Origin: Pagrus major
Taxonomy: Eukaryota; Chordata; Actinopteri; Spariformes; Sparidae
DNA: 64,000 nucleotides
Direction: 5' to 3'
NCBI RefSeq assembly: GCF_040436345.1
Contig: NC_133225.1
Span: 22,300,040 to 22,364,039 of the forward strand
Within the stretch, counting starts at the first letter, position 1. Each line of letters starts with the position of its first letter. The notes beneath the pieces were generated by a model. The model was not told the DNA's origin. It made no database searches and worked only from the letters and a program-made list of their open reading frames with translations. Of this stretch, positions 18,639-61,023 are shown piece after piece. Made by a program: the position numbers and the translations under genes.

Positions 18639-18784
18639 ACACAGGGAGATGGTGCAGCCTCTGAAAGACTTGACTCAAGACAGAAGACTCGAGACAAACA
18701 GAGACCAACCGAACTGAGCAGATCATTCCAGAACGAACCAGATCAACAGAGTTAAACCTCCCTACGCACAGTCGGACGTCCAGC

Positions 18785-27566: not shown

Positions 27567-29588
27567 TTAGTTGTCAGCCAGGTATTTTCCTGTAACGCAT
27601 CAATAAATGTTATATGTAGGTCTTTTATGGATATCTTTTGTAGATGTAGATATTTATCCTCCCACCTGTAGTGCTATTGTATCATCTAGATTATTTTGGT
27701 GTGAGTTGCTGAGATTTGCAGATATTAGCCGAGAGATGTTGTGACAGAGGGGGATGTAAACATTAATGGTGCCCTCCTCGGCTGAGCTCTAATGTTAGCT
27801 AAGACAAGCTATCTAGTTGCATTTTTTTGTGTGAAGCCAGACATCTCTACGTTGTAAAACATCAGTTTAGAACGGTTTGATCTATTGAATGAGAGGGGAG
27901 AACTTTAATTTACCTCATTAACATTTGCTCATGTTGTTAGTAAAATAGTGAACTGACCTGCGGCAAACCTCTTCTTGACGAGAGAGAAGCGGTATCCTGG
28001 CCCAGCCAGTTCAATGTCACAGCCTGACAGCGTGCTGCCCTCACTGGTGAACTGCACCGCCAGTGGAGCTGGTTTACTGGGGCCTTCTGTTAGCTGAAAG
28101 CGAGCTAACAACGATCCCACACCTGAGGGAAGAGGACGAATTTAGAAAGACATCTGTCAGCCACAAGGAACCATGAAGGAATAAACATTCATGATGACGT
28201 GCAGCAGGGAATCAAGTTCAAAGATTCAAGCGTAAATAGCTCTGGAAAGTATTTTGTATAGAGAGCAGCATGTTTCAGAAAAATAAAAATGCAGGTAACA
28301 GACTTTGTTATATTTAACTTTTCATTGTGGGAACCGGCTGTTGTATCAAAACCTAGTACAGGACATTAAACAGATAAAAGACAAAATACAGAATATCACA
28401 TTTAAAAGTCATTCATGTCCAAATGATGCAAAGCTAAACTGATCACATTTGAGCCTCTTAAAGAAAATACATAATCTAGTTTGCCATCTTCCTGGAGACC
28501 AGGTAGCCCTGGAGGCTTTCTGTTTTGTAATATACGAAACAGGCCAACAATTTAAAATCAAATGACGTCAGATGTATAAATCAAACTACTCTCTGCCAGC
28601 TGAAAATATGTCTGAGGATAAAAGCAGCTCTGGAAACATAAAAGATACAACACACACAGCCACAGTGCAGTGAGACGTCAGCCATATAAAGGTTTTCTTG
28701 TGACGCCATTTGTAGACACCAGGGGGCAGTGTTTATTCAGGCAAAGCTGAAAACCACCGAGGGCTCCATCCTTTCCTGAGGTGCATCATGTACTAAATTT
28801 TTTGTCCTATAGCCTGCTTCGCTGCATCATTGACTCCTCGTGCAGTTTCTAGGTCAGTGTAAAAAACTATCCAGCTCCAAATGTCTGCTGAAACTCTGTC
28901 ACACCTCAGGTAAGATCAGAACAATGTTCAGACTGTACAGTTTTTCTTTAAGCCTAGTCTCTCCACATTCTGCACTGTTGCTGTCTGAGTGACTCTTTGT
29001 TAAGATGTACAAAGAAAAAGCTCAGAAGTCCAAAAGTATCAAAGTTGACCCCGAAGTTGTCATCACATTGTTTTAAGCCCAAGATTATGGCTGATTTTTT
29101 ATAAACTAAAAGCAGGACTTTCTCAACAATCACCACAAGGCTATTCTTTAAAGAATATCATTATCACTACACGTGCATCTTACCTCCATTTTCAGATTTC
29201 TGTGAGATATCAGGAATCTTCCAGAGAATTCTTTGCTGCTCCGCGTTCCTGTCACAACAAATCATTTATATTTTCATGCATTTTTTCACATGCAAAAACA
29301 AACAACAAAGCTAAAATTATGCTAGCAAGATTCAGTAATATATAAGAATAGAATATATCTTATATAAAATAAGAGGTCAATAACATTGCATACAGTTGAC
29401 AAATTAGAATTTGATGGTACATTTCAAAACATGACTTGCTGGCAGCCACGCCATGGCCCCAAAATCAATATCAAGATTTTCACAAATATATGATCGGTCA
29501 TCTCATATTGTGTGTTGGGTGCAGCCTGAAGTAGCAAGTCGAATACTGCATGGGATGTGAGATGATCGCATATGTTCAGACTATAGTG

Positions 29589-29678
<90 letters not shown>

Positions 29679-38600: not shown

Positions 38601-41600
38601 ACTCCTTCAACCCCCTTCACACCCCCTTCCCCTCTCTTCTCTCTGAGGGGATCATTACTGTACCTGCAAACGAATCAAAGTGTCTCTCAAAGGTGGGCAG
38701 TTTGTCTACATAGGCATCGTCTTCTGACAAGCCAACGGACAAATAGAAAGACAAACAAACGGCAAAACAAAAAATAAACAGAAAGCAAATGAAACCAAGG
38801 AAAAAAGATTTAAAAAAATCAGAAAAGTTCTGTCATGCACACAAAAATGAAACTGCAAATAACAAAAAAAAAGCATATTTAAGTCAAACATGAACTGGAA
38901 CTGGAATAGGGTCAGTTTATAATTAAGTCTCTGGGACTTTTATATTATAGTCCATCAGTGTTTTAGCTCATCAACAAAGCCACAATTTTAAAAAAATTTA
39001 TACAGTTAGAGCTATAATAAATACTTCAGCAAAATCTCCATACATAAATTTGTTCATGTTATGGTATAAATCCAGTTGAGCCATTTGAATATTAGTCTCT
39101 CCCTGCAATTTGTTTAAAAAAACAACCTCAAACCAGGGACGTTTTTATGTAACTGCAGCTGCCTCCAGAGTGTGTACATGTTTTAAGTCTATTATGACTC
39201 AGCCATGATACAGTCTACTGAGATTGGCCATTATCCACTCACTCTGCACTGCAAGGTCCTCCAACACTGACTCGAAAGTTAAATCAGGGAGCATAAACTC
39301 TTACTGTGCCATTAATTCATTAAAGGAGGGTTTCTCGAGAAATGGTTGTGATTTAAAATTAAAATTAACACCCCGCTGCAAATTCACACCTCCCACTCAT
39401 ACGGCATGTATGTGTGTGTGTGTGGGAGTGTAAATATGAATTGTCTGCGTGTGTGTCAGCCTAAACCAGACACAATATTTATGTGCAGTTTAACAATTCA
39501 TTGTAACTAAATGATCTTTAGCAGTTATTAATTCTTATTTTACATTAAGAGAAATCAAGATACAAATGACTGAAGTCGTGTTTTGCTCCAGATGGTATCT
39601 GCTTACATTCTTGAGTTTCTGAATGTATGATAATTACATACTGGGTTTTAGCGCTGCTTTACGAACATTCAGGAAACTGTCACCATTTCCAGAAAATAAT
39701 AAAAAAAATAAATGTAGAAATGAATAAACACACAACTGAATGAGTCATTCAACACAGACTCTGAACATAAGGAAGGACGGGGCCAGTGCATAAAATCAAT
39801 AATGAACTTTTAATGTTCACAATGAACACTTAAATTCAGCTGTCACTGCTGTGACCGCAGCCGTCAGACGACAGGGAGCACACACCTGACACGGACACGG
39901 AGAGCTCTTTACCGACGGTGGGGGTGGTGGCGGCACTCATGGAGTTGGTGGAGGAGATCGAGGAGGTGCTCTCGGCCCGCGCCAATGGGGCGATGGGAGG
40001 GGGGCTGGCAGAGTGCACCGGCGGGCTGAACGGACGATTCTGAAAAGATACACAGGACAAAGAGAGTTTAGAGTGAACAAAATGAAAACATATTTAAAGG
40101 TTCAAGGTTTTTACATCTTATGAGATCGCTTGTTCCACTTTTGGAGAACACATTTAGCCATCAAAAGTTGTCTCTAGTTATCAGGTTCATTGTTATCGGT
40201 CAAAGTTCATTTAACCATCAGCAAGTTGTACAGTTGTGTTTGTCCTTTCCTGCAAGTTAATGACTTCACCAAAACAGCTGCACAAATATCAAATCACAAC
40301 CATCTCAAATGTAAGTGAAATTATTATATACTGCAAGACTTACTGCATCTCCTACAGTGGGTTTTCCTGGAGGAAGTTTGGGCCGTGAAGGGGGGCGAGG
40401 TGGAGGTGGTGGTGGGGTGGCGTTTACTGATGAAGGAGTGGCAGGTCGCACCGGAGAGGAGGAACCTGCAGAGGAGAAACACAGATGGATTACTACGTGA
40501 AACTTTGTTCTTTTTAGATCTTTAAGGTGTCGGTCAGACATGTCAGTGTCCCCCACTCTTTTCTTGAGATGATTTTCAACGACTTTTCCGGGGACATTTT
40601 CAGTGATGATCTAGCTTGTATAACAGACAGGGATTGTGCCCGTATACTAATATGTTCCTTTCTGTGGAAGTCTGATTTTTAAAAGATTAAAATATTACTT
40701 AAAACCAACTACTAACTGGTTTCTTTAAAGACAATCGTAGGCAACTGGACTTGTTTCAGTTTCAGTAGCAAAGTGAAAAAGTACCGTTAGCCAGTAATTA
40801 GCCAGTGTTTGACTTGCATACAGTTGGGCTGCCATTCATAATTTTAACCCTGGCAACCTATTTATTATCATCAAACTCTCTGAACAATGCCCAGCACATA
40901 TTTGAAACCATTGCTCCTAGCCAGAGTTGAATCACAAACCTTAAACCTTTGCAGGCAGCACAAGCTAGCAAGAACGACAGCTTTAGCAACTGAATCAAAC
41001 ATGCTAATCAATTTAACATTATTCAACAAGATGGGAAGAAAGCAACAATAATCTGTAAAACCTAATAAAACTACCACAGTTACCAGCCAGCAGTAACTAA
41101 TATTTACATTTTAAGCATAATGTCACTTACATTATTACCATTACATCAATGTCATCCAGCCTGCAGGTGCTACTGTGTGATGTGACTTGGGGTGTGTTCA
41201 CAGCACGCAGCCAACTCAAAATACTTGTCCATAAACTAACATTACCATTTGCCATTATCATCATTGAGACCTCTACAGAAGAGTGAAAACAGACGACCTC
41301 CTATTCAGATACCTATTCTCGTTACCACTGACAGGATTTTCCTAAAGCTGTAACCAGACAAAATCATTTCTAAAAAGCACTGGCTTGTTACAGCTGCTGG
41401 TCAGCTATTAGTCATACACTTTCTTTTGTGAACCACTGACCTAAATTTGATCAATGTTCTCCCTTGTATTGAGATTTTTCTTCACATTGTTATGTATTGT
41501 GTATTTGAGTCCCTGGCTCATTAAAATTTACTAGAAATGATTTGAAAGTCGACAGTTACAATTCACTTACAGTTGACGTGATTACAGAAGAAACTATACA

Positions 41601-44600
41601 TGCTATAAAAATAAAAATGCTATTAAAGTGAAGTCTGACCTTTAACTACAAGTCAGTCAGAAAAACAGCCTCTTTTAACACAACACAATTCTGCATCAGA
41701 ATGACAGTGTACATGCAACCGAGCCAAAACATGACCTCCTTTCCAGAGAAAAAGAAAATGCACCATCACAGATCAGTTCATGTCTAACAACGAAGATGGT
41801 GCAATCAGCTGAAAATAAAATTTGGAGATGGTGCAATGCTGGAAAAACAATCCTTTCTCATCTTCAGTCAAAACAACAGATGCTATTATATCTAGTCACC
41901 TGACTGGAGGATGACCATTGTTTTCATAAATCCATTTGTGTGAGTGTGATAAGCAATCATTGTCCTCCAAACACGCTTATTATTATCTAGAAAATATGAA
42001 GCAAGCTCTTTCCACCACTCTAAGCTCTTAAAAAACAGTTCTCTATAAACAGTATCCCACGATGACGTCATTGTATACTCACCGCTATTTGTGCCACCAG
42101 CTCCAGATGTGGGGCCCGGTGAAGACACCACAGTCCGGTATGTGGGGGGAGGAGGTGGGGGAGGCGTAATCCGGCTCCCCTGGCTCGCATCGTTGGGTGA
42201 GGTGACAGTTTCACCTCCGTCCTCTTTGGGTTGGGTGGTCTCTGTGTTCTTGGACTGCTCCTCTTGAGATAGGACTAGAGGTGTTGGGATGGGGCGTGTT
42301 GCAGGTTCCTCAGCAGGAGGAGTCACCGCTGGAGGGGTTCTTGCTTTGGGAGCAGGAGCTGGTGGGACAGTGGTGGGCGAGTTGATGGGAGGGGGAGAAG
42401 ACGCAGGAGGAGACGCAAGCTCCTTTTGTGGTGCTGGGGGTGGAGAGGTGGCGAGCATGGGAGGATTTCGGTCCTCTGGTGTGGAAGGACCTGAGGGGAC
42501 AGAAGGTGCAGCGTGCTCTTCTGAAGGAGGTGGGGAGGTGGGTAGAGGAGGCGCAGGTTCTTCTTTTGGGGGAGGGGAGATCGGGAGAGGTGGTGCAGGG
42601 TCTTCTGGAGGGGGTGGTGATGTAGGTAAGGGTGGGGCAGGAGATTCAGGTGGAGGCGGCGAGGCTGGTAGCGGAGGTGCTGGTTCTTCTGGTAGGGGCA
42701 GTTGGTTAGAAGATTCTTCACTGAAGCAGACCCACGATTCACCCGTTTCCTCACCAGCAGGGGGTTCAGGTCCAAAAATGTTGTCCAAGTCAGCGATTGA
42801 GGGCTTCCTGGTGGAGCCGTCTGCTTCTGTTGATGCTTCTGAAACAGAGACAGCCGGCGATCAATCAAAGGCTGTGTCTGCAGAGGTGCTCAGTATGTTT
42901 ACACACATAAATAGAACATGACAGACAGCAATATAGACAGAAAGATGGAGAGAAAGAAGCTGCTGTGTCCAAGTGTTAGGTGTTTTATCCTGAGGTGACA
43001 GTTTGAAAAGAAGACTTCTTACCAGCATCATCTGCAGGGGAAGAGCCAGTCGACGGGTTGGAGGTGGGGACATTCTTGGGTGGAAGTGGAGGTGGACCTG
43101 CAAAAGTATCAGTGCAACAATGAATAGTCATTTCCAACTTATTCCTAAGCCCTGTGAACCTTCCACGTGACTTCCGGTGAGTCCCGTCATATAACTGGAC
43201 CTGACATCTTCCATGGTAACAGGACACTAATCCTCTTTCTCAGAGCGATTGGTACAGCAAATCAATCACTCATGAAGCTCTTGGTTAGCATATTTATCGT
43301 GTTAGTAGTACTAACACTTATTATTGCTGAGCCTACTTAGCTAAAGCCTCGAAAGTGCCGCCAGTGTGTCAGTTATTATGAAACTATGCTACTCACGCTA
43401 GTTCTGAAGAGCACCGGAAGTATCATCCATAATCGTTTTCCCGGTAACCTCCCCAAGAAACTCGTGAATAACTTCAGGAAGCTACGCCTTATAGACCTAA
43501 ATGATTGTTTATGTTTGAGCTTATCCTGTCACTGCAAATTATGATGAGCTGACTTTGGCACAAACTGAGTACTGTTTCATAGATGAGCCTTTAACACGTA
43601 CATTATTGTAAAGATAAAAAAGCTTTGAAGTTTGGATCCATACAGCACAGGTATTATGCCTCCTGCAAAGCAACCAAAACAACTTGAGAACAAGGAATCA
43701 TCCCACAAATAATCAACCATGCAGCACAGTACATTCAGACACCATCATGCCAAATGCAAGGAGGAGACAGTGAGGGGGGGCTGGTGCAGTATGGCAGACA
43801 GGCACTGAACTCTCCCATGTAATAAAAACATCCAACATATGAATCATTTGGTGGTGAAAGGGGTGATGAAATGAAAAAGTTATCACCACACAACTGTTTG
43901 ATCGGGTCTGTTTGTTAGTCAGATGAGGGGATGAGGGGGGTTCATGAGGTGAGCTGTCAATGGAGCTGTGCAGTCATTCCAGGGAGACGAGGATGTGCGG
44001 CACAATATGCATAGAATGGTTAAACTTACTTCCTGTGGGGAAGGATCTTGTCAAAGGGGATTCGGGCTCTGACAGAGGAGCGCCCCACGCATCGGACTCG
44101 GACAGAACCACTAAGTTCAGGAGGGGACAGAGAAGGTCAAGTAAGGGGAATACTACCAAAACATTTAAGGGTTTGTAATTCTTTGTGGCTCAAAAAAGCA
44201 AAAGGTATCAGAGGGGAAACAGCACAGATCAGCATGTCAAAAAAATCTTTCATTCAAGAAAACTGATTTCCAGCCTCAGTGGCGGACTGCAGTCGGGATG
44301 TGTTGGAGCACAAAAGCACCTTCAATGTCTTTTGCTTGCCAACTGAATTTCACTGCCACTATAATAGAGGAATGCAGGGTACAGCACAAAATGCAGACAT
44401 CTGAAGACATGACTACAACCCTCTTCACTCAAACTGATTTCTAGAGGCAGAATTAAAAAACATTTTGGCACAAGACAGACCCACAAACAACATCAAATCT
44501 GTTGACTGTGACTTGTGACCACATCTGCAATGGAATAACAGCATTATCATTTTATGAATTCAACATTTATCTTTACTATTAACCTGGCTATATAAAAGTC

Positions 44601-47600
44601 AGCTTAAAACTAGCCTAACCACTTGTCTCATAAACAAACCAGATAATGCCTATAACCCACATTATTATTATCATTAGGCAATCTGAAATATATGAGAGGT
44701 TAATTATCTTGAATAGATGTTGTTAAACTGTTTACTGTCTTACTGTAATAGTTCTAGTTATATTAGCCTAAATGGTGCGAGTAGGCTTTATGAATATATG
44801 AAATATTGGATTTACAGGATATTTGCATTAATGTGATGAAGTACTTTCATTTTTCAGGAATTTTATTCATTGGATTTATTAAAAACATCATCAGATTATT
44901 TTATGTTTAAACTTCTCTCAAACAAATTTCCAATGAATTCACATCATATACATTCACTTGGGAGTTATATAGCATTCCTACAATAAATCCTACTTTCATG
45001 AAGGTTATAATGTTTCAGAGAGGTGTTTATTCATCTGTATGGTAACTTTTCAGGCTGCAGTTTGTGCTGCTGTTAAATTGAATTTTCTATTATTTTATCC
45101 ACCCCATTTAAATCAATGACTGTAGGCGAAATAACACAATAAAACTACATCCTCCAAAATTACCATTAAATTTAATCAGCGCCTCTCTCAAACAGAATTA
45201 TTGCAGTTGTTGTAGGAGACTACTTAAAATCTAGCTAATAAACTTTAATATTTGCTAATTCAGCATCTTGTGAAGATAAAACCATAATTGGTAATAAAGT
45301 AGTAAGAGATACTGGTGTCACATAGACAAAGTTGTTTTATTTGTCTGAAGGGAATTTGCGCGAGTTGATGTTAGTTATGCCTGACATGGCTGTTGCGTAA
45401 CAGCTAAGAGCTCTCCCCCAGCCTGCACTGCTAAATCCTACTGGATTGGACGAATGTGGGTGACAGCAGAATCTGAATATCAATGAGCTGCACTGTGTAC
45501 ATGAACGTGACCTCCCAGTCCCAATTTCAACTTTGACCTTAGCAAAGACAGATGGAGTGAATCCACTACTGCACAGAGAGCCTGAGGGAAGAACAATGAT
45601 GTTAGAGAAATAGGTGAGGGGGAGGGGGAGGGGGAGGAGGAGAGAAAAAGAAAGAGTATCTGCTATGACAGCCAAGCAGGGCTTAGCTGGCAGCCTTAAA
45701 GAGACAATAGATGTGTGTTTAAAAAGCCTTTTACAATGTGTTGCTATCACTTTTAAACAAAAAACAACAACCGACACAAAGACATAAACAGAGACACGTG
45801 AAGAGACAAAGATGGAGGGTTACCTTCATTTTTCGGTTCTCCAAAGGCTGTGTCCAGAGGAGGCCCAAATAAGGCTGTGGTGTCTTCAGAGACAGGTGTT
45901 TGTTGACCGCTGACACAGACAAAGGACAATATGAAAGAAGTTGTGTCACACACCAGTTATAGAAAGTCATTTAAGGAAACGGCTACACCGTACATATAAA
46001 GGGAGCAAGCTATCAAATGGTATTGGAGAATCAGAAAATGCCAACACTGCCAGAAAGAACTGCAGATGTATCTTAAAAAATATGTATGTTTTTCTAACTA
46101 ATTCCATCTTAGTTTTCATGAATTTTATGGATCGGGTTGCAGCTGCATTGTTGTAATTATTAGCTGTAAATTGTCAGCCAACATAACGTGTATCTCAAAT
46201 ACAGCCTTCGGTTATATTAAAAATATTATCTGGATAAGTTTACTAAAGTGACATTCTCTGAGGATTCCTGCTCAATGAAATCAAGCTAGATGCTGCAACT
46301 GATGTAAGAATGCCTTGAGTCAGATGCAGAAATAGTTTCAGTCAACAAAAGAGATGACATTGGATTCTGGTGACATCTCAGTAAGAATCTACACAAAGTG
46401 TAAAGTGATGCGGTTTATAGAAAAATGAAATTGTTTAACTAACTAAGAGGCTCATAAAGGTGTTTGTCCACTGATTGATGTGATTAAATTCTCATTTCAT
46501 CTGACCATGACAGAATGTACCGAGGTTGGGTGGACTGGCCAAACTCCCCAAAAGGCCTGATGATGCTTGATGGTAAGATTTGAAAGCTCTACTTCATGTA
46601 ACAGGTAATTAGCTCAAAATATGACACTTTAGACTTCACTAATGAAAAAAAAAAAACTACTGTAAAGTTTATGCTTAAAATCAAGCTACTTGTATCACTT
46701 CAATCATCAATAAGTGGGTACATTTTGTGACATTACTATGATTACTGTTACCTGCCAAGAACATCACCCTATGCCAAAAGAATGCATTGCCCAGTAAATT
46801 TAATGCACTGTTTTACAACACAAAAGTTTATTTAAAAAACAGTAAAAGGCAGCAGGTGTCTCAGCACAAATAAAACCAGATACAGTTTAAGTGTAAACAT
46901 ACAGAACACAGTACATGCAGTACTATACCAGTAGAAGGGACCTGCAGTGACTCATACAGTATAATACATGCTGTATACTGCAGCACATTTAGATTTAGTG
47001 GCATTGAATTGTCCTGAACTTTGTCAGGGAAGAGTGGAGTACATACCTGGGGGGCTGTGGTGCTGGAGCTGGTGTGGGGGCGACAGAGGGTAGAGTAGGG
47101 ACGACACGCCTTGGTCTGGCAATCTCCTCACCTGGACCCATAATTAAATACCATATGTGACTCTCGCAGGTCATTCTCTGTAATTCACCATCATTAATAT
47201 TTGAACCTAGCCTGAGCTGCAGCGAGCCTGATACTTACTGGATGTGTTCCTTTTCAAACCCTGTAACAAAAAAACAAAAACAACAGTAAAATATAAAAAA
47301 CTTAAAGACATAAAACTCAAAAATGCCATCCAAACAGTCAATAACCAGTACAATGTTACATTAGTTCAAATATTCTGCTACCATCCTACAATGCACACTA
47401 TGTACAACAATTGCAAATACACTGAAAAACATAGAAGTATCAATGTATGATAGTGCAAAATAATCCACTTTATCTTTGAATGATAAAATGTCAAGAATAA
47501 TGATGTCAGCTGTACAATAGTGAAGATCAGATGGTCAGATGCTGAACTTCAGTCTAAGATTGACTTAATCTGATGAGACTGGAGAGCTGTTGGTGCCACT

Positions 47601-50600
47601 AGGCCAACCCCAAACTTTTTGAAGTTGTTAAGTAGTTTATTGAGCATTTTGATACTTTCACAGTATTTATATAGCTTTATAATAAAAAAAGACTCGTTTA
47701 TTCTCACTTTCGACATTATCGGACCTTAACCTGTAAACAGCTGCATTTTAGTGGCAGAGTGGTTGAAAGTCTTCCTTGTGTAAGAATAGAATATATTCAC
47801 AATAATTACTAATAAGCAAATCCTGGAGGTATAAAATTGGATAGGCTAATGCTGAGCTGCTTGAGAGTGGTCACTTGGAATAATTTTAACGTAATTTGCA
47901 ATGTAAAAGAATTATGTTTATAAGTGATTCATTGAATGATGCACATTCACTGAAATATGGCACAGAAAGCCCATCTGCCACTAGGGATACAGTTTCAATT
48001 AAGGGAAGTAGAGTTAGTCCTATTAATAACTGGAAATTCAATAACAATAACAATGTTAGTATTATGTTGGAAAACGGCAACTTGGTGAAGTGCTGATGCC
48101 TGCAGTGGAAATACTGGAAAGCCTTCAAAATATGCTTTTGAAGTCTTAGGAAGCCAAGAGGCCTGATACCAGAGAAGGTGTGAGGCTGATAAAGTTGGAG
48201 GGAGGAAAGTTAAAAGAGAAATGAGTTTTGTTGTTGAAGAGGCAACAGCACAAGAATATTGCCTCTCCTGCTGTGTTCTTAAACAACCGAGTGTGTGCGA
48301 ACATATGTATGACTTCACCATGAGAGGGAGACCAAGAAATACCAAGAAAGGCAAGGAGAAGATAAGGAGACAGAGGGAGGAGACAGGAGCAGATGAGATG
48401 AGACACGACACAACGATGGGGAGTGACTGAAGTAAGACATCAAAGGGTCCAGCTGTCAAAAGTGCAAATTTTCTCCCCCTACAGAGACCAAGCATGAAGC
48501 CATTCAAGATGAAAAATAAGAACACCAGTGATCTTTAGAAGCTGGAATAAATATGTACACTTACATGTATCATTTCATTGTTATGCTTAAATATGAACGT
48601 CAAGACAAATCAGCTAACAGTTTTGACCCCTCGCCTCAGCCACTGAACCCACCTACGTATTTTCTGTCTTATTCAACCAACTCCAAGGACAAGGTGACGA
48701 GTAAAAGGGGGGCAAGAAGCATGTGACATATTTTCGGCCTGACCCCAGGAAGACGGAAGAAAAGGACACTTACCGGGCTACGTCTCTGTGACCAGCAAAA
48801 AGGAAGAGAGAAGAGACACCTGGTCAGAGAGTGACAAATCAGTAAAGCAGACATCATATGTACATCAGGAGAAGAAGAATGTTGACCTGGCTGGTCAGAT
48901 CTGGGGATGAGGATGATAACATGTCCATGGAGATGTGTTTTGTGTTCATGTGTGTTCAATTTTATGAGAAATTGTTTGTGCAGCCTTGAGGTTTTTTGAG
49001 CATAAATGGAAATAGCTAAAAACTCGTGGATAATAAGGCATGTCATTATTATGAGACAGCTGAATATGACCTTTTCAAACTGACCTGTGTGTTTGTGTTA
49101 TTGCTTGTTGATGGTGAGAAAAAGCAGGTGTAGTAATGCCTAAATCCTCTAATATTACAGTGCCTATAAAAAGTATTAACCCCCTTGGATGATTTCCCAT
49201 TTTATTGCTTTTATAAGTGGAATCATCGTTAATATAATTTGGCTCCTTCAAAGTAATGTCAATTAATCAAAAATATATGATGTAAAATAAGTGATTGCAT
49301 AAATATTCATCCCCTTTAAAGTGACTGATGTCCAGCCAGATGGTGCTAGTAGTCTCACAATTAGTGAAATAGAGATCACCTTGGACAGTGAATATGTTTC
49401 AAGTGATTGTAGTGTTACGTTATATAGTGTTATAAAGACACTTGTGTCTAGAAGGTCCAGTCACTGGTTAATCATGTAGGAACACATGTCCATTGCCTCT
49501 GCATTTCATTTGAGGTTCTGTTTCTTGTGAATTAATTAATCCTTTCATCTGCAATCTGACTGTTGTCAGGAAAGAGGCCCTTGGAGCCTCTCACCTCTTC
49601 ACCTGACAAGGAGGACTTGTTTTGCTTACAATAAAACCGTCAAATAGACGATTCTCAGAGATCCTCCCTGGTATCTACACCCATCTCTAGGAGGCCGTAA
49701 AATGGGATGCAACACCATTTGCCCTCTTTCCCCCCCCAAAGACAGAAACACTCCTTTCTCTCAGGTCGGTCGAGGTCAACATGGAGGAATCCACTCTCTG
49801 AACATCAAGACAAACAGAACACTGTTTTGTGGCAATCATGTGTTATAATCAAATGTATTTGCAATTGTAAATGAGATTAACAATGGCTGATTTGTTATGT
49901 TCTCTCCTGATCTAAATTAACATACACACACACATTCTCAGAGTGAAGGTCTGATAACCCCCCTCTTCATTAATGATCTTGGTCGACAACTCAGAAATTT
50001 GCGACTATTTCTGCTCCTATCTGCCACATTCCAACATATAACAGTGTCTGCACTCATCCAGATTTCAAGCAAGTTCTAAATAACCATTAAACCAGAACCT
50101 CATCTTCCTAATTCTGACAAATCATTAAACAGAAAGAAAAGTTATTAAATCTGATTTTTCTTACATTTCTCTACAATTAATATTGACTGAGATCAAATTT
50201 AATGTGTAAAATGTCCTATTGATTAACTTCTTTTTATTAAGTTTCTACCAGAACGAAGTTCTGTTTTAATTTGTTTTATACAGTTAAGTATCGTAACCTG
50301 ATTTAGAGGAAGTGAACTTAATTTAGATTATCTTGTATTGAGTAACAACGGAAGATCCGCCTGATCAACGTATCATCCTCAGTTATTTTATTCAAGAAGT
50401 TAAATTTAGTTTGCAAAGTCAGAGCCTGAGAGCCACTCGAAGCAACGAAGAACATCATCTTTATTAAAATCATCATCATGACACTACAGCAACTTGCTGT
50501 GTCCGAAACCGTGCAAGCGGTTTCCCATGAAAGACAGACTCTTTGACAAGCCAGACTGGCGCTGCCCCCCACGCTCGCTAGCGGTACCATCCCGCTGGGC

Positions 50601-53600
50601 ATTGAGCCAAGATCGTCACCGGCTCGGTACTGGACGAGCTGTGCTATTCCTACGTCATCGGACCGAGGTCTCCAACCGGCTGATACCGGACGAGCAGCGA
50701 CACTCGGCCATTGGACCGGGACTGCCAGCTAGAGTCGCAAATCACCGGAGGGAACCCGCTGACTCCACAACTCTGCTTAGAAAGTAGGCTCTCCATCACT
50801 CATAGCAGCTGGATTCACACATGAAACATGAGTTGGTGTCTACAGCTCTGATTACCTGTTGTTATTCATTTAAATTGCCATTTCATTTATTTAATCTGAA
50901 TTAGTCAATAAACATATTTAACCGTATGTCGTTGTCTGTGCATGTTTGTTTTTAATGTGGAGAACCGATGGAACTGTGTAGAATTCACTATTCATTTATG
51001 AGATTGAGTACATTAATTTAAAATTGATTAGAATTGTTACAAGTTAACCTTGTCCAGTTGGATTTGATTAATTCCCTCCGGATTATTCAAATAGACAAAA
51101 CAACGGAGGTGGTGCCATGAAGACAAAATAACACTCCAAGCAAATCCATGAAAAGGTTATTGAAAAGTATAAGTCAGGGGATGGATACCAAAACATTTCC
51201 AAGTCACTGAACATCCCCCAGAGTTCAATTAAATCCATCCTTAATGGATGGAATATGGCACACATGTAAATATGCCTAGAGCAGGCTGTCCTCACAAACT
51301 GAATGACCACGCAAGAAAGAGATTAGTTAGGGAGGCCACCAAGACACCTATGACTGTTCTGAAGGAGTTAAAAGCTTTAGCTGCTGGGATGGGAGAGAAT
51401 CTGCATACAACAACTGTTGCTCAGGTTCTCCACCAATCAAAGCTTTATGGGAGAGTGGCAAAGAGAAAGCCACTGTTGAAGAAAGCTCATTAAATCTCCA
51501 CTAGAGTTCACCCAAAGGTATGTGGGAGACTCCAAGGTCAACTGGAAGAAGGTTCTTTGGTCTGATGACACCGAAATGGAGCTTTTTGGCCATCAGACTA
51601 GACGCTATGTTTGGCAGACACCAAACACTGCACATCACCACAAACACACCATCCCCACCATGAAGCATGGTGGTGGCAGCATCATGCTGTGGAGATGCTT
51701 CTCGGCAGCAGGCCCTGGAAGGCTTGTAAAGGTAGAGGGTAAAATGAATGCAGCAAAATATAGGGAAATACTGGAGGACAACCTGATTCAGTCTGCAAGA
51801 GAACTACGACTTGGGAGAAGTTCTATTTTGCAGCAAGACAATGACCCGAAGCGAATAGCGAAAGCTACACAGAAATGGTTTAAAGACAACAAGGTGTATG
51901 TTCTGGAGTGGCCGAGTCAAAGCCCAGACCTCAATCCAATACAGAATTTGTGGCTGGACTTGAAAAGGGCTGTTTCATGCCCGATCCCTGTGCAACCTGA
52001 CAAAGCTTGAGCAGTTTTGTAAAGAAGAATCGAGTAAAATTGCAGTGTCCAGATGTGCAAGCCTGATTGAGACCTATCCACACAGACTCAGTGCCGTAAT
52101 TTGAGGCCAAAGGTGCATCTACAAAACACTGACTTGGAGAGGTTGACTATTTATGCAGTCTCTTATTTTACATTATACATTAATTAACATTTAATTAACT
52201 GACATTACTAATTGACATTACTTTGTAGATTTCATTATTTATTTTTTGTACATTTTTTGTCAAAAAAGCCAAATTATATTTATAAAAACAATAAAAGGTG
52301 AAAACATTCGAGGGGATGAATACTTTTTACAGGCACTGTATCTGTGAATTTGCTGTGGCTGGACACGATACAAAATATCTTGTGGAGTTGCCTACATCAA
52401 CTCATACCACCCTACATCACCCTATCTTGCGCCATCTCTATCCCCGACCCTTTATTTGATAATCTTTTTGTGACAAACCATGTTATTTTTGCCCTCTAAT
52501 CCTTCTCCTTTCATTTCCCCTCATAGTCTCCCATCCGCCCCCTTGGTCTCTTTCATTTCTGCTGAAATCTCTCCATCTGCCTGCGTCACGTCTACCTCGC
52601 ACCAACCCTCTCTCCCCTCCATCCCTCACTCTTGTGCTTGTTCCAGTTGTGCAGTGAGCCGTGAGTGATTAAAGTGATGCAACAAGGGGGCGGGACATGC
52701 TGATGGAAGGGATTCATTTCATTGGCAAGATTGGGGCAGGACACAGGGCAACACTGTTTGCCATAACCAATCACTGTCTCCCTGCTGTATGTAAACAGGA
52801 AGACCAACAGGAAGTGTTGCAATCTGTGACCTTTTAGCCTCTTTCAGGGATTAACAATGACCTTTACCACACAAGTAGTTGTGTACAGACATGGCAATGT
52901 TAAAAACAGACTGCTCCAAACAATTGTGGGATGTATTTGAAATCATTAGATCTTTTGTGTCCCATTTTTGAAATTCAATATTGCATCTTTGCTTGTAGTG
53001 CAAGAGTAAAGACACAATAATATCTTTCAGCTGGGCTGTCAAAATGAGATCTTTCTGGTTAAAATGTTGTTGACGATAGGACAAAGGAGGAATAAAATGT
53101 GATGTAAGACCTCTTGTTTGAATTGCTAGTATTTTAACTCCATCCCTGACCTTTACCCTGTCTCCTCTATTGCTTGCAGTCTTGTTATTTGGTCTGAGAA
53201 CTGGAAGATGAAGACTCCAGAACCAATTAAAATCATATTAAAGATGTCTTAGTTAGCAAAAAAAAACTTAAAAAACAGAGCACTTGTACTCAAAGCACCT
53301 ATGCAAACAATTTCACATTTGCCATAAAAATGATGAGTAGTAACACACATGCACACTATCTGCCTATAAATAACACCACCATGAAACACACATACAAAAA
53401 AAAACACATAATAGTGCCCATTTGCCCTAGAAAAGCCAAAAACCATTAAGTATTAAGATGGATTAAAGTATTACTGTAACAGTCAAGATAAAAAATACAT
53501 ATAAACACAACAGCATGCAAAGCAAAGGCTTACCGGACTCCTCTACAGAAGATAGTATCATAAGACGCAGCAAAGGAGCAAGAGATAAAAGACAAATAAA

Positions 53601-56534
53601 AAGAAGAGAGGGTTGGAAAAGTTAGGAGACTAGAGGGGAAAGCATATTAACACTGACAACTCAAAGCAAAGCAAAGCATCTGTGTTTGATGTAGGCAGTC
53701 ATCTACATCAGCTACAATCATTAATACAGATGGATGAACCAGAAGTAATATGGCTCCTCACTGCATTCAGACAGTTCTTCATCCCTCCATCCACACATAT
53801 TATCCACTACTCCTCCTAACATCAAGTGAGTGCTGAATCCTGGCTCACATTTTAGGTGAAACAAGCTGTTAACTCAAATCATCGTGTCCCTCTCACAAAC
53901 TTGTGTACATATGAATAATTCATGCAGAATATGCCAGATATTACCGCAGAAGTAAAGCTCAGGTTGTCTGCTAAATACAGCACTCAGTATCTAGGAATGT
54001 ATAATACTTGGTTTGTGTTTAAGGTTTTTCACAGCTGTGGTAAGAGGTTTTCATATTTACATGCAGAAAACCAACGTCAATGCATTAGAATATAGTCTCA
54101 GCTTTTAGTCAAGGGAATCTTAATGTTGTACAAATGACTGGGCTACTGTCAAGTATGTGTCTTGCTTTTGAAAATAGGAGCAAGTCATAAATGTTTCAGT
54201 CGGACAATGAAATTTTACAGGATTGGTTCAAGGAAAAGGACTAATCTAGAAAAAAGTGGAAAGAAGCATTGTTTGTTCCTGGAGCCCCGTTAACACTTGG
54301 CCCCTCTTCCTCTTTTCATCAGACCGTTTTATTGTCAGTCCACAGCCAAGGTTACCCAGAGTTGCCAGGGACTGGGAGTGACCGTGTGACTCATGTAATT
54401 TATGTGTGAGCAGAAAAGCTCTGCACAAGCAAACGTGATGCTAATTTGAACTGGTGGGGAGGTGAAGGTGGCAGTTTCATAATCACAACTACAGGCCAGT
54501 GATTCCAATGTCACGATCTTGTGTAACATTCAGGTGACTTGACTGCATTACATGAATTATAAAAATGTTAGAGAAAACAAAACTTTCTATGAAGGGCATG
54601 TCTATAATCCATTGTAAGAACATTCACACATATTTAACTGTAACACTACAATGCGTAGTAGTTCCATTACCAAATCTGTCGTATTACGAGTACTGCAACG
54701 AACATTTACTTTCAATATAAATGAATCTGTTGTTGTCCTTTACTTAATGTCAAGAAATAGTAAAAAAAATGCCAATCACAATTCCCAAGTCAAAGACGAT
54801 GCCTTCAAAGTGCTTGTTTTTTCCAAAAACAAGCACTTTAATCCAAAACTAAAAGATAGCACATTCACTATGATAAAAAAAACTGAGAAAAGCAGCAAAT
54901 TCTCAAATTTAAGGAACTAGAACTCAATAAATATAACAAAATCCTTGTGAGTAATCGTTTTGTTGATCCACTTGTCACTTCAGCGCCATATCTATGAGGA
55001 AAAAAGCCTCAATATGGCAAAAACAACCAATGTCTCCCATGTACTTCGCACGTGCACACAACCATTAACAGCCATGGAAAGACCTTCACACCTGATCAGG
55101 TTAACAGAGCCAGCGGGTGAACACACAGATTAAATTATTGAGTTCAGAAGCTCCAATGACCACACGCAATCTCACCGCACAGCAGACCGACACACAGGTT
55201 CATCGTGCCCACTTTCCTACCTGAATTATTCAAGGCTGACACTTAAGCTAACTGTCCTCACTGAAGAACACAGGAATTATGGGCAGAAGCTAAAAAGGCA
55301 GGGTCTCACTGCTAATTACAGGCTGTCTAAAGGGAACGTGTGCATGAATTTTGGACTCAGCTGAACTGCATCACTTCAAACAAGTGCTTCACACCCTGCT
55401 ATTTGGCGGCGGTATGTCGGTAGTCATCAGATGGGTTCTGTTTTGTGGGGACATCTGTCTCATGTGAAAACGACACCAGACTCAACAGGAGAACACTGAC
55501 GTCACTGATGTCACAGACAGCACTGACCGAGTATCACAAGCATCACAAATTAAATATATGGAATTCAAGCTATCATATAAACCTGACCTCAATCGTCACA
55601 GGGACATGGATTGTGATTTCAGATGTGGGTTCAGCCTTTAAAGATCCAAGTGAAGCTGTGACCCATTTAGAGATCCTATCATTAGGTAAAACAAAACATT
55701 GGGAGACAGAAGACTATATACAATTTAAACACCAAAACTCAGCCGTCTGTTTATGAGAGCCGGCAGTGATGTCAGGGCTACTCACCATAGGAGACGGGGA
55801 AAGGGCTATGTTGCCTATGGAGGCTTTGAGCTCGTCGACCGATGGCACTGTCACTACACAATCGGCCGGCAGCGGCTTGATCTTGATTTTGAATTTTTTT
55901 CTGTGGTCCTCCTCTTCTTCCGACTCATCAGAGGAGAAGAAGTGGGTCTTTTTGGTGGTTGGGGGTAGCAGTAGTAAGGTGTCAAGGAAAGCAAATCTCA
56001 GTCCAGGATTTATATGACATTTGACTTACATAATATCATAAAGGCAAGTATGTGATTGCACCGGGTAGCCAAACTCAACTCCTCAACAAGAAACTACCCT
56101 TTTACCTTGGTGACTGCCTTAAAACCTCAACTAATTCCTTTAAAACTTGCTTTTTTGTGTTTTTAAATCAAGCATTTATTTCAAACATTGTCTCTACTTT
56201 TTTAAAATTGTGATCCATACTTGCAATTCAAACCCTTTTAATTCTGTAGTGTTCAATTGTTGTTTTATGTCTCTTGAGACAGAAATACCTTTCTGCAGCT
56301 GATTAATTAGAGAACGACAGAAACTGAAACCTAAATACTACTGTTGAATTAATTGAGAGGTATGTAAATTTTAGGCAAGACCGACTACAAATATTGGATT
56401 AAATTTGATGCCCAAAGGATGAACGCCCATGTTCTTTTGAATCAGATTAAATTTACAACTTACTGAGGAGGCAACATCAAAGTGATGGATATAGTTTTAT
56501 TATCATAACAAACACTCACAGAGAGAGAGAGAGG

Positions 56535-56595
<61 letters not shown>

Positions 56596-59500
56596 TTAAA
56601 AAAAAGAGCAGTGTCTCTGCTCAGTATGAACTGACAGTTTGGGGAATCAGTAAATTGATCAGAGTAATATTTCCACGCTTCACAAAGATGTTGTGGGGCT
56701 TTTCACTTCTTTTGAACTTCCTGTCACATCTGCTGCATCAATGACTCATTCTTCTGGAGCTGTGTTATGCGCTGCACCTTACTACCTTTATTTAGATCTT
56801 TGTTAATTAGGTGTTTTTACACTTCGTTCAGCAGCTAACGCACTTTATCATCAATGTTTGTAATTATTTTGTTTGTGTGTGGGTCGAGACATTTTATTAT
56901 ACAGATTTGCTTCCACTGATTTGGCAGCCTCGGCATAATTTGAAAGGGGATGAAGTAGATTCCAATTTGAATGATATTTACTACACAAACCAATCTCTTA
57001 TCAGTATGCACCAGTTTAAAATAAAATAAGACAAATTATTTCTGTTGAATGACAAATGAAGCAGTTCTGAGGATATCTCCCTCTTCAGACTCCTCATCAG
57101 GTCTGATGCTGTAGCCCTCGTCATCCACCTCAGGGGAGTTCTGAAACACATAAGAGTGACTCAGTATAAAATCTCTTTGGTAAAACTTTATAACAGCGAT
57201 CATTAATTGAAAGTGAATTAATAGTTTAATCACACTTAAGTTAATGACTTTTGTAAATGGTTGATACATTCTGTGCAGTTCATCTATAAACATTATTTGG
57301 ATGGTCATTATAAAGTTACAACTGATAATTATAAACCTTTAAAATTGCTGAATAAATGGTTTATAACGCATTTCAATGTTTGTTAACAGTGAAATAACTA
57401 TAAACTAAAGAGTTTGTATGTGATCATTGTATGTGAATAAAATGCTTACAGAAAAACAGCAGTTGGTTCGTAGAGTACCGTTGGTTAATTCAGCCACAGT
57501 TTAGGTTCCCATTGACATATTCAGACAATTAATTACACAAAGACTTCTGCTCACACCAAATGAAAGGTTTTCTGCTTAATGAAACATGACTAAACACATA
57601 TTGACAAAGTCATATTCTGGACGTTAAATTTAAGCACAATACTGTTACAAATGATAATTAAAACCATCAACTTGATATACTATTGTTGACCACTTTTAAC
57701 ATGCTTTGTCCACAAATTTGTCAATAGCACATTGATTTTACAATAACACGGATCAATACTTTAAGATCATTTAAAGCAAATGAAAAACAAAGCAGCAGTG
57801 AGCTGGTGAGGACCAAACACTGCTTGAAATTAGTATGTACTGTAAATATAATCCTGCAGTCAAACTTATACTTACATATCTGTCCCAGTCGATATCTCCG
57901 TAGAAGCCATTAGGGGCCCCGTTGGTCTTCTTCTGAGACTGAGAACAGAGAAATGCTTTGATTAAAATCCCACCAGACGGTGATGGTACAGTATATTCTA
58001 CACTACTGTGCTACCACTGAACGTGTTTCTATGTTAGCTACTGATCAGTTAAACTGTGGTGCAGCCAATTCTACTCTATAAACCTTTATCCTGTGTACTC
58101 CTGATGTCATGTCACATTAAACTGTCCCATAGTTTCCCATTTTCCGCTTACAGGCACTAATCTGTTCCATGTTTGTGTCCACCTTCAAGCTTGCAACTCC
58201 TGGTCAAAATAATGTAATTTTTGGAATTTTTTTGTGTTTTCTTAAAACTAAATTGAATGTTTGGTTGCTAAAGATCTGATAATGATGATGATTCTTGTTA
58301 TTATCCAATATGATGCGACAATACTGCATAATATTTCAAGATTTAAGTCTGTTCAAGCTACCCCAGAGGACTTAAGGGGATATTCTGTTGCCCTTTTTGT
58401 AGACTTAAAGCCTCCTCAGAGAGCCTGCTAATGAAAAGATAGCTGAATCAGCAACACTGGCAGTTGACTGATGAATGGACAAACACAATGTGAGGTCTAT
58501 TACAAGTCTAACCTCTAAGCTCTATACTAATTACTCTAGAGGTTAGTCTACCCAAAGAACTAGAGTCTACAGTTCAGTACCGATTCAACCTCTTGGGGTT
58601 CCTGGCAAGTAAAAAGAACACAGATAGTAAATATTATAGCTCAAGATCAAGACTTAGAGAGTGAATAGTAATTTATGAATGACTTAAGTGGTTGATATAT
58701 TATAAATCTTTTATGTTACTTACACCCCCATCTCTGTCTGGGGACCCCCTGTGAAAAGAAAAAGAGGAAAGAAAGAAGAGCACGAAAGTCACGTAACATG
58801 TGAGCTCTTCATTTTGATACTAATTGCTTTGCTATTTAGCAGAGCTGAAACATTTAATTGGAGTGTTCAAAGAAAAGCTTTTCACACCACCATACCCACA
58901 CACTTATTCACTCAAATATAAGACTCTCACAGACACCACAGCATAGAAACATTTTACACCAAGTCTACATGTCTCACAGCTACAGATTGGCTGGAGAACT
59001 ATCATGCTTCGAAAAGATCCTGAACAAATATTTCATAAGTAAGCTAACTGGTCTATTTAGAATTCATCATTTCAGCTGTATGCAAACAAGCACGGGATGT
59101 TTAAGTATGCCCATTGTTTTGTAAATCCATAATAGCTTGTCATAAAGGATTTGTTCAGACAGATTTATTCATACAATACAATACAATACAATACAATACA
59201 CAATATATCACTGTGGCTCACAATTGACTCTTCAGCTGTGAATCGTAAGGGAAGCAGCAGTCTTACATTTATTTTACAAGACCTGTACTCAATACTAATC
59301 CTGTAATAGTTCTGACTTATTCTAATCCTTTCATTCTGCTGTAATATGCACGACCTGCAGCCATGTATCAGTTTTTTCTTAAAATATCTCATAATTCAGT
59401 GGTTTCACCCAGCTCTCTGCTCCACTGCAGGAACCAACAACTGTCATGCTCATGCATTCATGCCTTATGTTCACAAAATACACCAAGAAGACAGATCAGG

Positions 59501-61023
59501 TCTTACGTGGAGTCATTGTCCTTCTCTTTCTTCCGTATCCCGAAGGCCTTCCTGGTACGTTTTTTCAATCCTGAAGTGAAAAAAAAAATAGGAAAGGGTG
59601 AATTACTGTGTGAAGAGACACCAAAGGCATGACTAAAAGGTGGTGTCTGTGGGTGGGTCAAAGGGTAGGTGACTTCAGCTGTCCTGCATCTGTCAACCTG
59701 GAGATTAAAGGTGACGTTTTTATGTATTTTTGAGTGACTTGCTGAATCACTGTGAAGGCAAAGGCTGTCTTTTATAACTAAAACTGTGTTCATGGTCATC
59801 GCAGATGGACAGACAGCCATGCAATTCCCAAAGCATCATCTTGGAATGGAAAACTCATTAGCACTGTGCAAATCAATGCGCCAAGGATTTAACAAGAATA
59901 GCTTAGAGAGCGAGTTGATAATATACAAAATTTCAATTGACAATGCGACACAAAGCATATGAGATCCAGTTTGAATCCCTCGACTAAGTTGGAAAAACTC
60001 ACTTCACTGTCTCTCCACCTCTACTGTGTACATGACAGCATGGCTATGACCATGGCATGTGTTCTCCAGCTTCCCTAATGAAGGTGCAACAATACAAACT
60101 AAAACAGCACTCTGTACAGTGCATACCTCCGCCAAGGCCCAACAGTTCACTTTAATTCAGTCAAGCAACATCAAACTAGATAGCGCTGTATGACTTTTAA
60201 AATTAAACCACCCATAAATGCTTAACCATAATTTAACCTCACTAGATCTAGGATCCACATGAAATTGAACTCACTCATAGATACCAGCCACCTGACTATG
60301 CCTGTTTTTTTTACCATTAAGATTCATGCATTTTTCCCTGAGAAATAAGCAGAAATGTCAAAAAATCCTGCATTGAGAGAACGTTTGCAGAAAGCGGTTC
60401 TTGTGTAATCCTGCTGACAACCCAACCAGAAAAACAAAAGCAGACACGGGTGAAAACATAACCTCTGTGGTGGAGGTAATGATTGCTGCATTGTTAAAGC
60501 AACAAGTGTGAGAGTGTGTTTTGGCCCTGACAAAACTTTTGGTAACTTGATGTTTTAGATGCAAACTCAGGACCTTGACACAAACACTGGTAAAGAATGC
60601 GACAGTATACACATCTAACCCCAGCTGAGTGCAAGTGCAGGACAAAAGCAGCATACAAAAGAGAAGAAGTTAGCACATGGAATACTACAACCTCAAAAAC
60701 ACTTGATGCAATGATCCAACATCTCAACCTTATTTTGCCCTCTATTTTCTTCAGTCAACAAACTGAAAGATTTGCAGAAATGTTTTGTGTGTTCTGGCAA
60801 CTCAAGATCAATCAGGATGTCATCTGGACTGAATTAACAACAGAAGTTCGCAAGAAATTGTTTACACAAAAGTAGGAAGTTCAATCACACTCCCTCCAGC
60901 TCTAAGTCACTTTAAGTATGTTTCATTTTACTCATTCAACTATACAATTATGCCAAACAAACAAATCTCAAAAGCTCCTGGCTTGCCCTTACCCCAGATG
61001 AAAGCCCAGTTGTCCCCCTCCAT
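27567..61023 (-). CDS. sgip1: SH3GL-interacting endocytic adaptor SGIP1
   Basis: Twenty-four coding exons chain in frame to 2727 nt, 908 aa (human SGIP1, from memory, is about 828); their coordinates are in the block entries below. The order is: a basic membrane-binding N-terminus ([18 protein letters not shown], residues 11-28), [16 protein letters not shown], the SIRP segment, an acidic stretch then KIKIKPL, proline-rich SH3-ligand regions (about 158-600), and a C-terminal mu-homology domain (about 640-905) ending [19 protein letters not shown]. Family knowledge: SGIP1 binds phospholipids, endophilin, Eps15 and intersectin, works in clathrin-mediated endocytosis at synapses, and regulates the CB1 receptor. 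Odd points are an AT-AC intron, two microexons, a cassette exon and an expanded proline repeat. Whether this is the a or b teleost paralogue is not decidable here. Confidence 0.96.
27660..27885. repeat. dispersed repeat related to the 34956-36192 element
   Basis: The motifs CATCTAGATTATTTTGGTGT and GAGTTGC resemble the left arm of the sgip1-intron foldback (CATCTAGATTGTTTTGGTGT, GAGTTGCC). It is a partial, degraded copy next to the last sgip1 exon. Confidence 0.6.
29590..29674. repeat. (TA)n microsatellite in an sgip1 intron
   Basis: About 42 uninterrupted TA units lie 200 bp from the exon at 29875-30077. The exact length is often unreliable in assemblies. Confidence 0.95.
34130..34262 (-). 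repeat. sgip1: pyrimidine-rich intronic tract 3' of an sgip1 exon
   Basis: On the transcribed strand this is a run of CCTTCC/CTTTCC motifs (34130-34200) just downstream of the donor of exon 34263-34322. Open frames across it, on both strands, are low-complexity artefacts. Confidence 0.8.
34263..34322 (-). other. sgip1: sgip1 exon [20 protein letters not shown]
   Basis: A 60-nt exon in phase 1-1 encoding the conserved linker into the mu-homology domain. It is framed by exceptionally long pyrimidine tracts on both sides. It matches the mammalian protein, so it is normally included. Confidence 0.95.
34323..34480 (-). promoter_or_regulatory. sgip1: about 150-nt polypyrimidine tract before an sgip1 acceptor
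   Basis: On the sense (-) strand nearly every base from 34480 to the CACAG at 34323 is C or T (TCCTCC, CTTCC and CCCCTCC units). This is far longer than a normal acceptor tract and offers many sites for PTB-type or poly(C)-binding splicing regulators. Binding is inferred from composition only. Confidence 0.6.
34956..36192. mobile_element. TTAA-flanked foldback element in an sgip1 intron
   Basis: The left end AGGGACAGTTCAACC and the right end GGTGAAGTGTCCCT are inverse, with TTAA at 34952-34955 and 36193-36196. Arms mirror each other through CATCTAGATTGTTTTGGTGT, the GAAATCATGAC block and TTTCATGTAGAAAATATTTT. The centre is split by a second repeat (35378-35842), itself bounded by TTAGCTAGC / GTTAGCTAGC. 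Confidence 0.8.
35378..35842 (+). repeat. dispersed AGTA-rich repeat nested in the foldback
   Basis: Inverse-orientation relative of 16116-16500 (AAGTACATTTACTTAATAGT, GTGTACTTGAGTAC and onward). It sits in the loop of the larger foldback and so is younger than that element. Confidence 0.7.
36525..36580 (+). repeat. tRNA-derived SINE head fragment
   Basis: GGTGGCCTAGTGGTCGGGAC resembles the box-A region of tRNA-derived fish SINEs. No box B (GGTTCGAATCC type) follows, so it is a truncated fragment and not a tRNA gene. Confidence 0.5.
38664..38723 (-). other. sgip1: candidate 60-nt cassette exon of sgip1
   Basis: The sense strand shows TTGTCAG, then an open 60-nt segment, then GCAG and the donor GTACAG. 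Both ends are in phase 1, matching the exons at 39913-40039 and 34263-34322. It can therefore be included or skipped without a frameshift, adding [20 protein letters not shown] between the TPTV and ENDQPSLV segments. The insert is acidic and aromatic, unlike the proline-rich surroundings. I do not recall it in the canonical human protein. Confidence 0.7.
39913..40465 (-). other. sgip1: sgip1 exons of the second proline-rich segment
   Basis: Two exons: 40344-40465 (RPATPSSV, then [19 protein letters not shown]) and 39913-40039 ([20 protein letters not shown], then [12 protein letters not shown]). They match mammalian SGIP1 closely. If the donor at 39912 is not used, reading continues 25 codons into the intron to a stop, which would remove the mu-homology domain. 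Confidence 0.94.
42083..42838 (-). other. sgip1: large 756-nt proline-rich exon of sgip1
   Basis: The exon starts [20 protein letters not shown] and ends in the conserved [18 protein letters not shown]. Between about 42490 and 42690 a 14-residue unit repeats about four times (EPAPPLPxSPPPxE), with a fifth diverged copy. Such units are candidate ligands for SH3 domains of endophilin and intersectin. The segment is longer than the matching mammalian region and accounts for most of the extra length of this protein. The glycine-rich open frame on the opposite strand is its shadow. Confidence 0.93.
43023..47260 (-). other. sgip1: sgip1 exons of the first linker region
   Basis: Five exons joined in phase: 47239-47260 (22 nt, GLKRNTS), 47047-47131 ([20 protein letters not shown]), 45824-45909 ([19 protein letters not shown]), 44030-44110 ([20 protein letters not shown]) and 43023-43097 ([20 protein letters not shown]). 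Each has a recognisable counterpart in mammalian SGIP1. Donors are GTAAGT or close to it except at 47046 (GTATGT). Confidence 0.93.
48774..48785 (-). other. sgip1: 12-nt microexon of sgip1 (RRSP)
   Basis: TGGTCACAG, then 12 nt, then GTAAGTGTCC on the sense strand. It encodes RRSP in phase 0-0 and fits the mammalian RKSPRRSPG segment exactly in place. Confidence 0.88.
49480..51085. mobile_element. unclassified insertion inside the Tc1 element
   Basis: The left Tc1 part stops after a typical AGAAGGTCCAGTCACTGGTT segment, and Tc1 similarity resumes just before GGTGGTGCCATGAAGAC. The DNA between has a GC-rich core (50560-50760) and a CAATAAACATATTTAACC stretch at 50907. It has no long open frame. 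A solo LTR or a non-autonomous element is possible; I could not identify convincing ends or a target duplication. Confidence 0.5.
51117..52110 (+). pseudogene. Tc1-type transposase, inactivated
   Basis: The frame opens MKTK and meets a stop at the fifth codon (TAA). It then continues with helix-turn-helix-like sequence ([19 protein letters not shown]), breaks again near 51265, and runs open at 51522-52010 with the catalytic region: [57 protein letters not shown] and [15 protein letters not shown], the last holding the final part of the DDE triad. Several stops follow after residue A-V-S-C-P. At least three breaks mean no functional protein can be made. The family is the standard fish Tc1 group. 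Confidence 0.93.
53534..53542 (-). other. sgip1: 9-nt microexon of sgip1 (RSP)
   Basis: CTTCTGTAG, then nine bases, then GTAAGCC on the sense strand. It encodes RSP in phase 0-0, between ...ALSPSPM (exon 55786-55970) and RRSP (48774-48785). It corresponds to the start of the mammalian RKSPRRSPG segment. Confidence 0.82.
55786..55970 (-). other. sgip1: sgip1 exon with acidic and KIKIKPL segments
   Basis: A 185-nt exon encoding [20 protein letters not shown], then KIKPLPAD and [18 protein letters not shown]. The donor at 55785 is GTGAG. Its upstream junction is not GT-AG; see the AT-AC intron entry. The start after AC at 55971-55972 keeps the frame with the previous exon (a Val codon spans the join). 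Confidence 0.9.
55971..57076 (-). other. sgip1: candidate U12-type AT-AC intron of sgip1
   Basis: On the sense strand the intron begins ATATCCTC (57076 downward) and ends in AC (55971-55972). A perfect match to the U12 branch site, TTCCTTGAC, lies at 55981-55989, which puts the branch adenosine 11 nt from the intron end. No usable GT donor follows the upstream exon in the needed phase, and with this junction the exon phases agree exactly (1 + 2). An alternative AC three bases upstream would also keep the frame. Confidence 0.82.
56518..56592. repeat. (GA)n microsatellite inside the AT-AC intron
   Basis: About 36 GA units with one short interruption (GGGACA). It is intronic in sgip1. Confidence 0.95.
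57077..61023 (-). other. sgip1: first five coding exons of sgip1
   Basis: 60993-61023 ([10 protein letters not shown], the start), 59507-59570 ([20 protein letters not shown]), 58724-58748 (25 nt, GSPDRDGG), 57876-57938 ([20 protein letters not shown]) and 57077-57140 ([20 protein letters not shown]). They encode the basic phospholipid-binding N-terminus. The ATG at 61021-61023 was chosen because it gives MEG in front of a phase-1 donor that joins LKKRT in frame; an in-frame continuation further 5' was not found. The promoter and any non-coding exons lie at higher coordinates. Confidence 0.92.
59172..59203. repeat. (AATAC)n pentanucleotide repeat
   Basis: Six to seven tandem ACAAT/AATAC units in an sgip1 intron. 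Confidence 0.9.

Follow-up and report, generated by a model that had tools for sequence, protein, structure and literature searches.

In introns of the minor, U12-type class, the 5′ splice site is recognized by U11 and then by U6atac, the branch site is recognized by U12, and splicing needs U12, U11, U4atac, and U6atac. Proteins of the SGIP1 type help start cell uptake. Here we describe an intron with terminal AT and AC (an AT-AC intron) in a sgip1 gene of the fish Pagrus major, located in a 64,000-nt stretch of contig NC_133225.1 (assembly GCF_040436345.1, positions 22,300,040 to 22,364,039), hereafter the window; all positions are those of the window. We compare this intron with three introns of related genes in the same genome.

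Published work gives the frame for this comparison. In PMC8199999, the 5′ splice site of U12-type introns is given as (A/G)UAUCCUUU, and the distance from the branch site to the 3′ end ranges from 10 to 20 nt, with an optimum of 11–13 nt. Phase 0 is reported to be avoided among U12-type introns. AT-AC introns account for 22% of the U12-type class in Danio rerio and for 12% of it in Takifugu rubripes (PMC7367187, Table 2). According to PMC2831892, vertebrate introns conserve their type well: eight of 180 clusters showed loss and five showed conversion; the same source describes AT-AC introns of the major spliceosome in sodium channel genes, with G at +5. A literature search found no paper naming SGIP1, FCHO1, or FCHO2 as carrier of such an intron; databases and supplementary tables of U12 introns lay outside this search and may well list these introns.

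Results

An AT-AC intron in sgip1

The intron extends from 57076 to 55971 on the minus strand (1,106 nt; phase 1 in the frame of the joined exons), and its sequence features indicate that it is almost certainly a true U12-type AT-AC intron of sgip1, a statement that covers the intron class and the donor. The motif read at its 5′ splice site was ATATCCTC (57076-57069, minus strand), the first seven positions of which agree with the form given in PMC8199999 and lie close to the U12-type donor (A/G)TATCCTTT. The branch site, near the 3′ end of the intron, was TTCCTTGAC (55989-55981, minus strand); it is the sole TTCCTTRAC of the window on either strand and resembles the class form TCCTTRAC. From what is known of the class, the branch adenosine should be 55982; the terminal AC (55972-55971, minus strand) then lies 11 nt past it, a distance inside both the 10–20 nt range and the 11–13 nt optimum. 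By eye, the 3′ end is not preceded by a pyrimidine tract, the sequence after the branch adenosine being CACCTTACTAC.

The terminal AT and AC were in frame with the flanking exons, as were further AC ends (see below). The upstream exon (57140..57077, minus strand) is directly preceded by an acceptor, ...gtttcag, encodes a peptide of 21 residues, and ends on the first base of the split codon G|TG. The downstream exon (55970..55786, minus strand) reads, after the split codon, from a 21-residue peptide on to ...ALSPSPM and is followed by GTGAGT. Joining 57077 to 55970 gave an open frame across the junction (...EEGVLPPTTKK...), and unspliced reading from 57077 gave 13 residues followed by an in-frame TAA at 57038..57036 (minus strand). 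The original prediction had placed a U12-dependent AT-AC intron in sgip1 at 55971..57076; gene, borders, and class hold, given the signals, the frame, the alignment with FCHO2, and the domain PF10291 described below. Its three U12 signals, including the 11-nt spacing between branch adenosine and AC, were found on the minus strand (it had given no strand), and the stop that it expected on read-through is the TAA just mentioned. A search of the window against Rfam returned no match at the gathering score. A 73-base AG microsatellite lies within the intron (56520-56592).

Identity of the gene

When human SGIP1 was used as a tblastn query, 13 of 14 rows were collinear along the minus strand from 59580 to 27950; this result is a lead only. 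The gene as traced by tblastn and Pfam (59570..27950, minus strand) is sgip1-like, with a muniscin mu homology domain at its C terminus: three exons from near its 3′ end, when joined, matched PF10291, the mu homology domain of the SGIP1/FCHO (muniscin) proteins (E 1.7e-32, 113.4 bits, cut-off 25). In addition, residues 1-81 of the 82-residue junction-spanning peptide aligned with the linker of FCHO2 in PDB 7og1 (E 2.5e-16), which points to an AP2-binding linker, and three further FCHO2 chains matched the peptide with E values of 0.022 to 0.064. The PF10291 match and the FCHO2 linker match support the assignment to the muniscins independently of the tblastn query. The 7og1 alignment crosses the junction, where the window protein has six residues that are absent from FCHO2. 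Pfam gave no match over the two exons flanking the intron. The spliced peptide gave 33 pattern matches in viral contigs and 151 in a scan of genome contigs, with no confirmed relative in either set.

The remaining tblastn row (453-346, E 0.52) lay outside the sgip1 span and was taken as a chance match. Between two sgip1 exons, on the plus strand at 51245-52007, two frames matched parts of Tc1/mariner-like transposases (PF01498, PF13358).

Chance expectation of the motifs

Across both strands of the window, ATATCCTY has two occurrences (at 2648 on the plus and at 57076 on the minus strand) and TTCCTTRAC has one (at 55989 on the minus strand); a first-order model fitted to the minus strand predicts 4.2 and 1.7, respectively. 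The two motifs alone mean little, because neither was rare relative to these expectations. The unlikely part is that both motifs fall at exon borders. The chance of ATATCCTY within the 55-nt donor interval was approximately 0.0018, and that of TTCCTTRAC with AC behind it within the 81-nt 3′-end interval was approximately 0.0004, giving a joint chance of approximately 7e-7 if the two are independent and with intervals that were bounded by conserved residues and first stops and were chosen after the borders were known. The second ATATCCTC (plus 2648) has no TTCCTTRAC on the same strand, the nearest sequence of this kind being one CTCCTTAAC at ~24,224, ~21.6 kb further along. A genome-wide search for the donor and branch patterns 5–30 nt apart gave 13 matches vs. 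8 in a reversed control; this spacing is far shorter than that of the window intron, so that the search is uninformative for it.

Paralogous loci in the same genome

Searching the genome of the window (786 Mb, 25 contigs) with the 82-residue junction peptide gave five matches, none of which contained a stop: the window's own two exons and one match each on C21, C12, and C11. By similarity, the C21 locus appears to be sgip1-like, and those on C12 and C11 appear to be fcho-like. The exons on both sides of the intron were located at all three further loci. In each of them (3/3), a ATATCCTT donor in phase 1 lies at the matching codon, and an in-frame AC follows a CCTTRAC branch site at a distance of 11, 16, or 19 nt, so that the original prediction's proposal to look for the same termini in related introns, applied here to paralogues, turned out in its favor. 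The C21 intron (1,354 nt) has the donor ATATCCTTTCAT and the branch site GCCCTTGAC, with AC after 11 nt; the C12 intron (155 nt) has ATATCCTTTACA and CTCCTTAAC, with AC after 16 nt; and the C11 intron (3,129 nt) has ATATCCTTTTTC and CTCCTTGAC, with AC after 19 nt. The distances in the four loci (11, 11, 16, and 19 nt) are all inside the range given in PMC8199999. The joined proteins read EEGFSLRPGDEGDAASKGKQFFSSSDSED (C21), AEGFCIRPEANENDAKENSFYSSSDSED (C12), and DEGFVIRADSTQNGCSEEKENNFYSSDSD (C11) at the junction, and the FCHO2 pattern NQNDTKENHFYSS was restored closely by C12 and loosely by C11.

Thus, intron position and type were kept in all of the paralogous loci, which share phase, donor motif, and branch motif with the window intron, whereas lengths (155 to 3129 nt), branch-to-end distances, and the branch site of C21 differ. 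Comparison of the four introns by blastn (E up to 0.01) showed no similarity in any of the six pairs; therefore, the shared signals are not leftovers of a recent copy. Within the three paralogue stretches (9.9, 4.0, and 9.9 kb), each gene strand holds a single ATATCCTY, which lies at the border, and the opposite strands hold none; the counts of YTCCTTRAC on the gene strands are 0, 1, and 1. The introns flanking the exon pair, inspected by eye, have AG before and GT after it in all four genes.

Several observations weigh against this interpretation. At +8 and +9, the window donor reads C and A, respectively, instead of the consensus T. Two more ATATCCTY were found off the borders in the wider loci, one in L010 and one in L013. 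In C21, the branch site GCCCTTGAC deviates from YTCCTTRAC by a single base, and in-frame ends lie at 5 and 11 nt (AC) and at 14 and 23 nt (AG). With 19 nt, C11 comes close to the upper limit of the distance, and the C12 and C11 intron ends are pyrimidine-rich, unlike the usual U12 class. In the paralogues, frame was the criterion by which the AC ends were selected. In-frame GT-AG pairs also exist in the paralogues (C21, 12; C12, 2; C11, 8), counted under narrower limits than those used below for the window, which has two pairs under these limits; the best was in C21 (donor −0.7, acceptor 0.2). Both C12 pairs carry a stop, and the C11 donors score −7.9 and −9.6. Finally, when aligned with FCHO2 and the three paralogues, the window sgip1 shows 3 to 6 extra residues at the junction, which a shifted splice end could explain.

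Alternative borders and explanations

The original prediction held that the exon phases match only with the junction 57077/55970. This was too strong: four AC ends keep the frame with the AT donor at 57076 (56001, 55974, 55971, and 55965), as do nine poor GT-AG pairs. The AC at 56001 precedes the branch site. The AC at 55975-55974 (minus strand) is 8 nt past the branch adenosine and would add one Leu, and that at 55966-55965 (minus strand) is 17 nt past it and would give EEGAPTT in place of EEGVLPPTT. Accordingly, 55971 is preferred because of its branch-to-AC distance and not because of phase, and it is very probably the main 3′ end. We consider it unlikely that the 3′ end of a U12-type intron with donor 57076 is instead 55974 or 55965, or that several ends are used, a variant that is compatible with the intron class proposed here and the products of which would differ by one or two residues. 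Both ends are in frame, 17 nt is inside the range given in PMC8199999, and the other aligned sequences lack 3 to 6 of the residues that the window sgip1 has at the junction; however, 8 nt is under this range, use of 55965 demands that an AC at 17 nt be chosen over one at 11 nt, and only the latter distance lies within the optimum of that source.

A cassette exon hidden within the intron is very unlikely. The intron length of 1106 nt leaves room for the idea, for which nothing positive was found, but such an exon needs a second U12-type acceptor and donor, and the minus strand has one TTCCTTRAC and one ATATCCTY (strong motifs only were scored). The spliced protein also misses no residue relative to FCHO2 and has six extra.

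There is scarcely any probability that a nearby GT-AG pair is spliced by the major spliceosome and that the AT-AC signals are accidental. Three GT and eight AG sites in the allowed stretches do form the nine in-frame pairs. However, four of the nine start at 57128 (donor score 1.1) and remove at least 17 residues, including the YSIRP stretch conserved in relatives, and the remaining five begin at donors with scores of −6.7 or −6.6. These pairs delete or add residues, and the four that could be scored among six other sgip1 donors reached 2.7 to 7.2, above all candidate GT donors. Moreover, chance would have to recur at the same codon in 4/4 loci with otherwise dissimilar introns. Equally negligible is splicing of the AT-AC termini by the major spliceosome, as in some sodium channel introns: AT-AC introns of that spliceosome exist, but they have G at +5 according to PMC2831892, whereas the window donor has C at +5 and a U12-type ATATCCT core and is accompanied by a U12-type branch site.

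Other features of the window

On the minus strand, a frame at 9442-8558 matched a class II tRNA synthetase core and an anticodon-binding domain (PF00587, PF03129), and a frame at 4718-4398 matched the Cns1/TTC4 wheel domain (PF18972); these frames are probably PARS2 and TTC4, respectively. On the plus strand, a frame at 18674-19036 resembles by eye the start of a relaxin/insulin-like peptide and had no Pfam match up to E 0.01. It is possibly insl5.

Discussion

Compared with U12-type AT-AC introns in general, the window intron is alike in its ATATCCT core, TTCCTTRAC branch site, short distance from the branch site to the 3′ end, AT-AC termini, and phase 1, and is unlike only in donor positions +8 (C) and +9 (A). 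The window copy shows nothing beyond the range of the class and is an ordinary member of a rare class. With the AT-AC introns of the major spliceosome it shares the terminal dinucleotides. Direct support for its assignment comes from the sequence signals, the frame, the continuity of the protein, and the presence of the intron in paralogues.

Judging from the class, removal of the intron would fall to the U11/U12 and U4atac/U6atac.U5 spliceosome. ATATCCT would be paired by U11 and later by U6atac, and U12 would pair with TTCCTTGAC, leaving the A unpaired. An AC at a suitable distance would then be used, with a lariat formed from adenosine 55982 and ligation at 55971. Because the intron is common to all four loci, it probably predates the split between the SGIP1 and FCHO genes and has a single origin; it would have been present in their common ancestor and retained in 4/4 loci found in the genome.

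In PMC9054013, the blocks of the FCHO2 linker are N1 (314-328), N2 (334-357), N3 (358-397), and C (423-438). The split codon would correspond to FCHO2 D333, between N1 and N2, provided that a tag of five residues precedes residue 314 in the 7og1 chain. By homology, the linker interrupted by the intron is predicted to bind and open the AP2 clathrin adaptor. If the intron were retained, the computed number of extra residues before a stop is 13 in the window gene, 21 in C21, 30 in C12, and 12 in C11, and each read-through tail starts with DIL because ATATCCT follows a G. Retention in cells, or any effect of it, is speculation. We regard as rather unlikely, although not negligible, a model in which the activity of the minor spliceosome is a common gate on AP2 activation via all four SGIP1/FCHO-like loci; under low activity, proteins from transcripts retaining the intron would extend only 12 to 30 residues beyond the junction, without N2, N3, C, or the mu homology domain.

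Gene models built from GT-AG rules alone would misplace a border in four genes of this genome. The interest lies not in the intron itself but in its sharing by four loci and in its place in the AP2-binding linker. This sharing raises the question of whether a loss of minor splicing would hit the start of clathrin-mediated endocytosis through all four genes together.

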